Below, piece by piece: positions 4,740-6,435 of a stretch of DNA of 6,435 nt. The position numbers and the translations under genes are program-made. The first letter of the stretch is position 1. Each line of letters opens with the position of its first letter. The notes under the pieces are model-generated. The model saw only the letters and a program-made list of their open reading frames with translations, did no database searches and had not been told where the DNA came from. Source of the DNA: Dehalococcoidia bacterium (lineage in GTDB: Bacteria > Chloroflexota > Dehalococcoidia > Plut-88900); NCBI GenBank assembly GCA_012270635.1, contig JAAXHX010000501.1, forward strand, positions 452 to 6,886, written 5' to 3'.

Positions 4740-4925
4740 TTGGCCAAGTGCGAGATATGCAACAAGGTGCCCCGCTTCGGCAGGAACGTGAGCCACTCCA
4801 AGAGGCACACGCCCCGGATGTACAGGCCTAACGTCCATCCCGTGCGGCTTATGGTGAACGGCAAGCGACAGCGGATGAACGTCTGCACCCGATGCCTCAG
4901 GACCCAGTACAAGCAAGCGTCTTGA
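4740..4925 (+). CDS. rpmB: 50S ribosomal protein L28
   Basis: This 61-residue basic protein is a component of the large ribosomal subunit. It begins MAKCEICNKVPRFGRNVSHS, the standard L28 opening, and contains the family core RPNVHPVRLMVNGKRQRMNV followed by CTRC. Four cysteines (4, 7, 49 and 52) form two CxxC pairs, so this is the zinc-binding version. The start is TTG at 4740-4742, supported by AAAGG 8 bases upstream and by the fixed N-terminus of the family. The stop is TGA at 4923-4925, where L28 normally ends. This shows that TGA still ends translation in this genome. The gene is divergent from fakA and runs directly into the next gene, whose frame overlaps its 3' end. Confidence 0.97.
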   Translation: MAKCEICNKVPRFGRNVSHSKRHTPRMYRPNVHPVRLMVNGKRQRMNVCTRCLRTQYKQAS

Positions 4926-5731
4926 GCCTGTCTGTCCTCAAGCGCAGACGCTTGACCGTGCCCCTTGCAGCATTGCTTCTGTGCTTCTTTGTAATTGGCG
5001 TCGGGTGGGCCTGTGGAGGGGCCACGGAGTCCCCCGACCCCACCTCCACCCCAGCCCCGTCCGGGACAATAACGTCCCATGACGCTGCCCCCGAACCCAC
5101 GCTCCCTGCCTCCGACTACGATGCTGGGGAAGGCTCCGCCTACGAGCCCGACCCCGGCGACCCCGCCACCCCAACTGCCGCCGCACCCGTACCGGGGTCC
5201 ACCGGTCGAGACTGGAATATCCTCGGCTCTCCCGATGCCACGGTCACCGTCCTGGACTACAGCGACTTCCAATGACCTAGCTGTAGGCGCTGGGCCCTTG
5301 ACATGGCCCAGGAGATCAAGACGGTCTACGTGGATACAGGCCGGGTCAAGATGGAGTACCGGCACTATGCGGTCCTGGGCCCCGAGTCCCGTCTGATGGC
5401 CCTCGGCGCAGAGTGCGCGGGAGAGCAGGGCGCATTCTGGGAGTACCACGACCGGATTTACCAGGAGCGGAGCCGGGAGCGGGGTGTGCAAGGACAGATA
5501 GCCCGGGCCGAGACCCTGGGGCTGGACGTTCCGAAATTCTCCGTCTGCATGCAGGACGAGGCTTACCAGCATTTCATCGACGGTGACCTGGTCAAGGCCC
5601 GTGAGGACGGCGTGACCACCCAGCCGACCATCTTCATCCTCAGTGGCGACAAGACGACCAAGTTCGTCGGGGCCCGGGCCTTCGACGTGGTGTCCGCCGT
5701 GATAGACGAGTATCTCGGGTCTTTGTACTAA
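4892..5731 (+). CDS. Selenocysteine-containing DsbA-family thiol oxidoreductase, secreted/anchored (TGA at 5273 read as Sec)
   Basis: This gene predicts a 279-residue extracytoplasmic thioredoxin-fold protein if the in-frame TGA at 5273-5275 is read as selenocysteine (residue 128). A signal segment (KRRR at 17-20, then a hydrophobic core to Trp39-Ala40-Cys41) is followed by a Pro/Thr/Ser/Asp-rich linker to about residue 105. The DsbA-like domain opens RDWNILGSPDATVTVLDYSDFQ, then U-P-S-C with Cys131 as resolving cysteine, then RRWALDMAQE. Later come ECAGEQGAFWEYHD (Cys175), Cys219 in SVCMQDE, and the cis-proline loop TTQPTIF (Pro245). These are hallmarks of the DsbA/thioredoxin_4 family, in which the TGA position is normally Cys. 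The frame then runs to TAA at 5729. Without recoding only a 127-residue stub ending before the active site would form. The ATG start overlaps rpmB by 34 bases; a TTG at 4922, overlapping the rpmB TGA, is a good alternative and gives a more typical signal peptide. A disulfide oxidase, reductase or isomerase role cannot be separated from sequence. Confidence 0.85.
5273..5275 (+). other. In-frame TGA, predicted selenocysteine codon (Sec128)
   Basis: The TGA falls between DYSDFQ and PSCRRW, exactly where this family has the nucleophilic cysteine of its CxxC motif. The same frame is open for 152 further codons and stays homologous throughout. The next gene has TGA at the equivalent codon, which argues against a sequencing error. 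Confidence 0.85.
5290..5311 (+). promoter_or_regulatory. Candidate bacterial SECIS hairpin of the first selenoprotein gene
   Basis: CTGGGCC (5290-5296) pairs perfectly with GGCCCAG (5305-5311) around the 8-base loop CTTGACAT. The loop begins 22 bases after the TGA, which suits SelB-dependent elements, which lie inside the coding region just 3' of the UGA. The loop lacks the GGUC of the E. coli fdhF element, and part of the stem encodes the conserved Trp-Ala, so the assignment is provisional. Confidence 0.5.
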
Positions 5732-5778
5732 TGGCCATATCGTCTGCCCCGGAACGCAACTCTCTATAGCATGGCCAT
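5731..5778 (+). repeat. ATGGCCAT palindrome repeated at both edges of the inter-paralogue gap
   Basis: The 8-base self-complementary word ATGGCCAT occurs at 5731-5738, overlapping the stop of the first selenoprotein gene, and at 5771-5778, at the start codon of the second. The copies are direct repeats and could also pair across a 32-base loop. It may be chance or a trace of the duplication. Confidence 0.25.
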
Positions 5779-6435
5779 TATTCCCCGACCCCTTCCATTG
5801 CTCATCCTGCTCTTCTGCGTGGCCTCCCTGGCCTTGGCCTCGTGGGCCTGTTCCTCCGACCCCGACCCCGTTGACCCGACCGCCACCGCAGCGCCCGTGC
5901 CCACGAACACCCTCGTCCCTCCATCGACTTCCGCTCCCGCTGATACCCCTTCCCCTGACTCTACGCCGGACACACCTCCCATCGCCAGGGACTGGAATGT
6001 TCTCGGCTCGCCGGACGCCGCCGTTACCATCGCTGACTTCGGCGACTTCATGTGACCAGGCTGCAGGCATTGGGCCCGTGGAGCGGCCCTGGAAGTGAAG
6101 GAAGCCTACGTCGACACGGGGCTGGTGAACTTGGCCTATTTCCATTTCCCCCACATCAACGACGATTCCCACCTGGCGGCCCTGGCCACCGAGTGCGCGG
6201 GGGAGCAGGGCGCATTCTGGGCCTACCACGACACCCTGTACGTAAACCAGGGCTCCGGCGGCAGGGGAGTGGAGAGACTCGAGGGTTTCGCCGAGGACCT
6301 TGGGCTGGACATGGACGGATTCACCGGTTGCATGGAAGCCAGGACCTATGACGGCGTAATTCAAAGAGACATAAACCTGGCCCGGCAAAACGAGGTTTCC
6401 GTCACGCCCACCATCTTCGTCCTGTCCGCCGATCC
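5771..6435 (+). CDS. Second selenocysteine-containing DsbA-family thiol oxidoreductase (TGA at 6053 read as Sec; 3' end cut by window)
   Basis: This is a paralogue of the preceding gene; 221 codons are present up to the window edge with no stop other than the recoded TGA. A hydrophobic signal segment (residues 8-26) ends in Trp25-Ala26-Cys27, like the W-A-C of its neighbour, and may be a lipoprotein site although the -3 residue is not the usual Leu. A Pro/Thr/Ser-rich linker runs to about residue 70. The DsbA-like domain opens RDWNVLGSPDAAVTIADFGDFM, followed by TGA (Sec95) and Pro-Gly-Cys98, giving UPGC. Later motifs match the first copy: ECAGEQGAFWAYHD (Cys142), Cys187 in TGCMEA, and cis-Pro213 in VTPTIF. 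From the TGA to ECAGEQ the two genes have no length difference. The ATG at 5771 is 39 bases after the previous stop and has no strong Shine-Dalgarno (GGAA lies 16 bases off). Partner and redox direction are unknown. The last helices are missing. Confidence 0.83.
6053..6055 (+). other. In-frame TGA, predicted selenocysteine codon (Sec95)
   Basis: The TGA directly follows ATG and precedes CCA-GGC-TGC, so it replaces the first cysteine of a CPGC active site. The frame stays open for 126 codons to the window edge and matches the paralogue upstream. Confidence 0.84.
6072..6089 (+). promoter_or_regulatory. Candidate bacterial SECIS hairpin of the second selenoprotein gene
   Basis: GGGCC (6072-6076) pairs with GGCCC (6085-6089) around the 8-base loop CGTGGAGC. 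The loop starts 22 bases after the TGA, the same offset and loop size as in the first gene. Loop bases differ between the copies while the stem is kept. G is shared at loop position 4, and this copy also has G at position 2. Confidence 0.48.

Follow-up and report, generated by a model that had tools for sequence, protein, structure and literature searches.

The stretch analysed here, 6,435 nucleotides of contig JAAXHX010000501.1 from a Dehalococcoidia bacterium (hereafter the window), carries two adjacent plus-strand genes that, judging from sequence comparison, very likely encode extracytoplasmic, lipid-anchored oxidoreductases of the DsbA/Thioredoxin_4 type in which the UGA of a UxxC motif would be decoded as selenocysteine (Sec, U). 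The first gene (copy 1, 4922..5731), recognized from open reading frames (ORFs), Pfam and homologues, comprises a lipobox, a P/T-rich spacer, a catalytic domain and a TAA stop; its in-frame TGA (5273..5275, plus strand) occupies the column of the N-terminal catalytic Cys (U-PSC). The second (copy 2, 5771..6435), assigned by Pfam and close relatives, is cut by the window end and has an in-frame TGA (6053..6055, plus strand) at the same catalytic column (U-PGC). Because the adjacent paralogue has its TGA at the same column, the arrangement is more than chance.

The start of copy 1 is uncertain: its reading frame could begin at ATG 4892 or TTG 4922, being open from either to the TGA, and the latter overlaps the stop of what is presumably rpmB (4740..4925, plus strand; named after an earlier, sequence-only reading of this DNA, which proposed copy 1 as a selenoprotein). 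That reading placed the TGA between DYSDFQ and PSCRRW, where it indeed lies, in frame, at 5273-5275. Its figure of 152 codons to the TAA counts the stop; the frame is open to TAA 5729-5731 with 151 sense codons. It also assigned the TGA to the catalytic N-terminal Cys, and alignment of the recoded translation with homologues places Cys in that column. The closest orthologue, P0001 (~65% identity), has Cys there (CPSC), and the column (C118) is invariant, together with G102, C121 and P235, in a 50-row alignment made of the two window copies (TGA entered as C) and 48 of 113 distinct proteins from homologue searches. Copy 1 thus shows a mark of bacterial selenoproteins, a TGA in frame where homologues have a redox-active Cys.

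With TGA taken as Cys, both copies pass the cut-off of Thioredoxin_4 (PF13462, 23.2 bits), copy 1 with 87.1 bits (E 2e-24) and copy 2 with 89.6 bits (E 3.3e-25). For DSBA (PF01323, cut-off 25.6 bits) copy 1 scores 32.1 (E 1.3e-07) and copy 2, cut by the window end, 23.4. The features of a DsbA-type fold are present: a thioredoxin fold with a helical insertion, the catalytic residue at a helix start (C118 directly precedes helix 119-137) and a conserved Pro (P235 directly precedes strand 236-241). Lipoprotein-type signals, recognized by eye (GWAC-GG in copy 1, SWAC-SS in copy 2), suggest lipid anchoring. Coding composition is maintained downstream of the TGA in both copies. A mechanical ORF call reports the downstream part of copy 1 as an ORF of its own (5303-5731, 142 aa, from ATG 5303), and this part matches Thioredoxin_4 alone (E 1.2e-11), as if the two halves were made from separate genes. 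Such a product would, however, have no signal, no first strand and no UxxC motif, and the 50-row alignment, in which the window rows were entered as C, shows no variation at either catalytic position; separate genes are therefore very improbable.

A changed genetic code does not explain the two TGAs. TGG accounts for all 20 of the Trp codons counted in the window, and rpmB ends at TGA 4923-4925 as a normal stop, so the general code looks unchanged; the sequence-only reading had likewise argued for site-specific recoding, and a changed code was rejected on these two grounds. Some UGA readthrough occurs in bacteria. Nevertheless, it is hardly credible that the UGA is read here as another amino acid, be it Trp (code 4), Gly (code 25) or the product of near-cognate readthrough: in addition to the evidence of the Trp codons and the rpmB stop, the coding segments counted have no in-frame TGA outside the two catalytic-Cys columns, and neither Trp nor Gly codons were found at this column in the fetched sites.

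Copy 2 and its probable second Sec went unmentioned in the sequence-only reading. The gene begins with ATG 5771 and continues past the window end, its TGA 6053-6055 lying between DFGDFM and PGCRHWAR. A homologue search returned 37 proteins at E <= 1e-10; 19 of the 23 inspected are close relatives of the part after the TGA, and in all 19 the first motif precedes the protein start. One of them, P0201, is marked as a window protein and is 96% identical to copy 2 over half of the query. It extends past the window end via a P/T-rich linker into WNVLGSPDAPVTLEDFTDFQ and ends there, immediately ahead of the catalytic position in a second Thioredoxin_4 domain. Eleven of the 19 (P0007, P0009, P0011, P0201, P0202, P0203, P0205, P0206, P0209, P0218, P0219) end in this way at E[DE]F[ST]DFQ, one residue short of the second-domain catalytic column. 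The codon at this second site can be narrowed down from four relatives (P0211, P0221, P0225, P0226) in which an out-of-frame FNEA requires TT(T/C) AA(T/C) GA(A/G) GC; the codon in the DFQ frame would consequently be TGA or CGA, and TGA is likelier because eleven proteins end there. In P0211, a second Thioredoxin_4 stretch (158-235) spans the site, in a frame needing further indels. Copy 2 very probably comprises two such domains with two Sec residues, to go by these protein ends and the back-translation. Several points weigh against the second Sec. Eight of the 19 close relatives have their ends elsewhere than at the second catalytic column: P0204 terminates within domain 1, and P0207, P0208, P0210, P0211, P0221, P0225 and P0226 are out of frame in or near the linker. 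Moreover, the second-site codon is deduced from protein sequences only. A further protein, P0212, is an N-terminal part whose reading frame is lost at the first motif. Such frame losses, in the repetitive P/T-rich linker or at a motif, and early ends are frequent among the database relatives of copy 2 and may reflect either assembly error or real variation.

TGA at the catalytic column recurs among relatives. From a genome_contigs scan with two general patterns, 80 loci of the 402 relatives listed were kept; among the matches listed, identity is at most 44%, and the column reads TGC at 42 of 93 sites, TGT at 31, TGA at 16, TAT at three and TAC at one. An enlarged set of 182 sites (173 distinct), for which some added loci were chosen for having TGA, contains 79 TGA, two of them the window's, 54 TGC, 36 TGT, 3 TAT and 1 TAC; the fetched relatives thus add 77 TGA sites. 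A tree of 173 rows, 78 labelled Sec and 95 Cys, requires 14 or more switches of the Sec/Cys label, five of them forced by well-supported branches. One DsbA-like relative (L150, site 2660, minus strand) has UPVU, two TGAs in one UxxU active site.

These data also bear on the possibility that both copies are pseudogenes, through nonsense mutations or sequencing errors, and yield lipoprotein stubs only. Some sequences of the group are evidently error-prone or broken, as the frameshifted relatives of copy 2 (P0207, P0208, P0210, P0211, P0212, P0221, P0225, P0226) and the early end of P0204 indicate. Yet the same codon is affected in two neighbouring copies, 11 of the 19 close relatives of copy 2 stop a single residue short of the same column in domain 2, the downstream frames retain coding composition, and neither TAA nor TAG occurs at the column in the 173 distinct sites. 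Decay or read error was rejected on these grounds and is most unlikely.

The decoding machinery was sought in the relatives' genomes. At a loose threshold, a tRNA-Sec match was obtained in all 24 genomes and in 14/14 controls, and therefore only scores of at least 67 bits were counted; 10 of the 14 genomes holding the 16 TGA loci reach this score. At E 1e-11, where two of 14 controls match and 80 of 105 listed genomes are covered, tRNA-Sec is present in 29 of 32 genomes with a TGA-containing match among the matches listed (G008 is in both TGA sets). Of 45 genomes with TGA copies, 42 have a SelB match above the curated cut-off, vs 2 of 14 controls. Together with the Cys orthologue, the TGA of the paralogue and the 77 further TGA sites, these genomes lend support to the Cys-to-Sec exchange first proposed from the sequence. 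Other counts from the same searches argue the opposite way. At least 67 bits is also reached by tRNA-Sec in 7 of the 10 genomes in which the fetched locus encodes Cys, and at E 1e-11 it is found in 38 of 48 genomes without TGA among the matches listed. The association of tRNA-Sec with TGA copies is weak; Sec machinery is widespread in these lineages, which makes finding it a weak test that does not discriminate. The support comes from the genomes of relatives and not from the window's own; a tRNA search of the window found none.

The bacterial selenocysteine insertion sequence (bSECIS) model, as given in the excerpt of a 2026 review used here (PMC13188914), has a G in the first two loop positions and a loop 16-37 nt from the UGA. 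Candidate hairpins follow both TGAs on the plus strand. That of copy 1 (5290..5311; 7-bp stem, 8-nt loop, -12.8 kcal/mol) has a loop that starts 21 nt after the TGA, within the model distance. That of copy 2 (6072..6089; six pairs with a bulge, loop GUGGA, -9.4 kcal/mol) fits the model. A number of observations reduce their weight: the minimum-energy loop of copy 1 has no consensus G in its first two positions, although a suboptimal fold (-12.2 vs -14.2) has the loop UGAC with G second; random synonymous recodings fold as well in 28 of 400 cases for copy 1 and 238 of 400 for copy 2 (not significant); and a hairpin (-8.3 kcal/mol) also occurs behind the rpmB stop. Post-TGA folds in the window do not stand out from dinucleotide shuffles (z -1.31, 0.39, -1.36, 0.19). 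Since synonymous recodings and the rpmB-stop hairpin do similarly, the window hairpins are compatible with bSECIS elements but prove nothing. This rpmB-stop hairpin has a perfect 7-bp stem (4938-4955, TCAAGCG-CAGA-CGCTTGA) and is possibly a regulatory element or a chance occurrence.

Among the relatives the signal is clearer. A hairpin of <= -9 kcal/mol within positions 13-48 is present at 60 of 79 TGA sites vs 13 of 90 Cys sites, and G occurs in the first two loop positions at 73/79 TGA vs 36/81 Cys sites (nine hairpin-less Cys sites dropped). After terminating UGAs of TGA-bearing genes, a hairpin was found in five of 40 cases, L150 and genes lying too close to an end being excluded. RNAalifold gave no useful consensus on 20 mixed TGA sites because the hairpins sit in two registers. 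Two sets were picked by eye from the 79, comprising 40 array-type sites and 9 further sites. Stem positions pair in 95% and 100% of cells, respectively, both partners have changed in 11 and 6 cells, and pairing falls to 28.8-38.4% (40 sites) and 24.1-46.3% (9 sites) when the stems are slid by 1-3 columns. Further pair types in the 40-site set are not above shuffles (376/500), nor are both-side changes (122/500) or pair types (128/500) in the 9-site set; as the sites are related, shuffles overstate significance. A covarying hairpin is present at the relatives' TGA sites; hairpin evidence within the window is weak.

In the proposed mechanism, UGA would be decoded in the window organism by the usual bacterial route, with tRNA-Sec, SelB and a hairpin closely following the UGA. 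Nucleophilic attack would come from the selenol, which, with the resolving Cys (C121 of copy 1), would form a selenenyl-sulfide that may then be exchanged with dithiols or disulfides of exported substrates; either direction of exchange is conceivable.

Sec-containing DsbA genes may also be clustered. Twenty stretches were fetched for clustered matches or odd frames, and 15 of them (L133-L147, one genome each) hold three or four TGA sites of the DsbA-like family: four in L133, L134, L137, L139 and L143, three in the other ten. The sites are mostly 0.7 to 1.0 kb apart, with one 3.4 kb gap in L136. In three genes of L133, UGA is both Sec codon and stop within one gene. VKOR (PF07884, E <= 1e-8) is encoded in 21 of the 45 genomes with TGA copies, and in 10 of those 21 a distance of 109-167 bases separates its match from that of a TGA-bearing DsbA. 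For the DsbA proteins concerned, this proximity speaks for a role in oxidative folding. At the same threshold, none of the 15 cluster genomes (completeness not stated) has a VKOR match, and the clusters probably use another partner. VKOR genes themselves may contain Sec: in L159 (925) and L160 (1118), read as reverse complement, a VKOR-family gene has a TGA in frame as the first codon of U-IWC, at the place expected for the C-terminal CxxC, making both possible Sec-VKORs. Another VKOR-family gene with an in-frame TGA lies at G031:C216:25624-26001. Neither 'VKOR' nor 'vitamin K' occurs in the excerpted text of the 2026 review (PMC13188914).

The remainder of the window serves to place it. On the minus strand are what we take to be recG (cut) and a DegV-type gene, together with a FakA/DAK-type gene labelled FakA/DAK2 from Pfam and source names. 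This FakA is 99% identical to P0081 and 70-79% identical to P0082-P0109. At E 1e-143 it was matched in no genome among 400 sampled from the phylum of G017, whose order is represented by one genome, and the best match in 393 genomes sampled from the class of G015 is 48% identical; both draws are samples of a phylum or class, and the window clade was met in neither. In Rfam, searched up to E 5, the window has a single match, to a miRNA family (19.9 bits vs a gathering score of 100), and a viral_contigs scan found no relative. By FakA, the window clade would be an apparently unsampled branch of Chloroflexota. There is a reasonable, though far from compelling, case that it has a double-Sec, double-domain DsbA (U-PGC plus a second U) beside a single-Sec paralogue; with the relatives' clusters of 3-4 Sec-DsbA genes, in whose genomes no VKOR was found, this would amount to an extracytoplasmic redox relay dependent on selenium, of which the literature searched gave no description.

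Automatic gene prediction breaks such genes at each TGA, and the 11 relatives of copy 2 stand in the protein collection as fragments between two sites; a selenium-dependent disulfide system is thus easily missed in annotation. Sec outside the cytoplasm is puzzling, oxidation being a risk there. The natural Sec/Cys pair of copy 1 and P0001 and the probable double-Sec protein provide material for asking why a DsbA uses Sec.

Structural alignment relates the window proteins, at 22-24% identity, to BdbD of B. subtilis (3eu3) and to DsbA/TsdA of Corynebacterium diphtheriae (4pwo, 7unn), all of which presumably have an active-site Cys. The DsbA-like proteins P0002-P0005 likewise combine two thioredoxin-like domains, and with them two catalytic motifs, in a single chain. 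In all the fetched loci, nine double-domain ORFs were recognized by motif (L017, L028, L036, L044, L048, L053, L057, L067, L080): three U/C, four Y/C and two C/C. Unlike the proposed copy 2, none is U/U. Sec in the first and Cys in the second domain is seen in L044, L057 and L080, Tyr in the first and Cys in the second in L017, L028, L036 and L053.

DsbA-like selenoproteins have been described repeatedly, a precedent that the sequence-only reading did not mention. Nine DsbA-like and one DsbG-like UxxC sequences came from the Sargasso Sea (Zhang et al., 2005, PMC1088965), and DsbA 1 to 3, of which DsbA 3 is UxxV, and a DsbG-like protein are given in PMC2398784. By description, the UxxC proteins of both papers likewise have Sec at the N-terminal CxxC position, and the excerpts used make no mention of tandem genes or a double-domain form for them. 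In the excerpt of PMC9402790, DsbA-like is named once, in a figure abbreviation. Of the 119 families covered by the 2026 review, as excerpted, most have one Sec and some two or three, and selenoprotein operons are also described; its Table 1 includes a DsbA-like protein form 1 (PF01323, UxxC, 1 Sec) and a DsbG-like protein (NF041057, UxxC, 1 Sec) (PMC13188914). NF041057, the Rcas_1661 family thioredoxin-like (seleno)lipoprotein, listed as pfam13462 in the excerpt of PMC9312934, is the best NCBIfam match of both copies (copy 1, E 2.1e-44; copy 2, E 3.5e-34), which share its UxxC motif and Thioredoxin_4 domain. Their scores (151.9 for copy 1 and 118.4 for the cut copy 2) are below the curated cut-off of 190, as are those of 9 of the 10 TGA-bearing relatives tested, the two-domain L057 alone passing; the window copies are therefore relatives and not formal members of the family. 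They also differ in Sec content, the tabulated family having one Sec per protein and copy 2 probably two. Neither the searches of open-licence PMC literature nor the excerpts used gave a double-Sec DsbA or a cluster of Sec-DsbA genes. Copy 1 is thus of a known type, that of the UxxC DsbA-like and DsbG-like selenoproteins, and what is possibly new is the form with two domains and two Sec, as well as, in 15 related genomes, the grouping of 3-4 Sec-DsbA genes in clusters.
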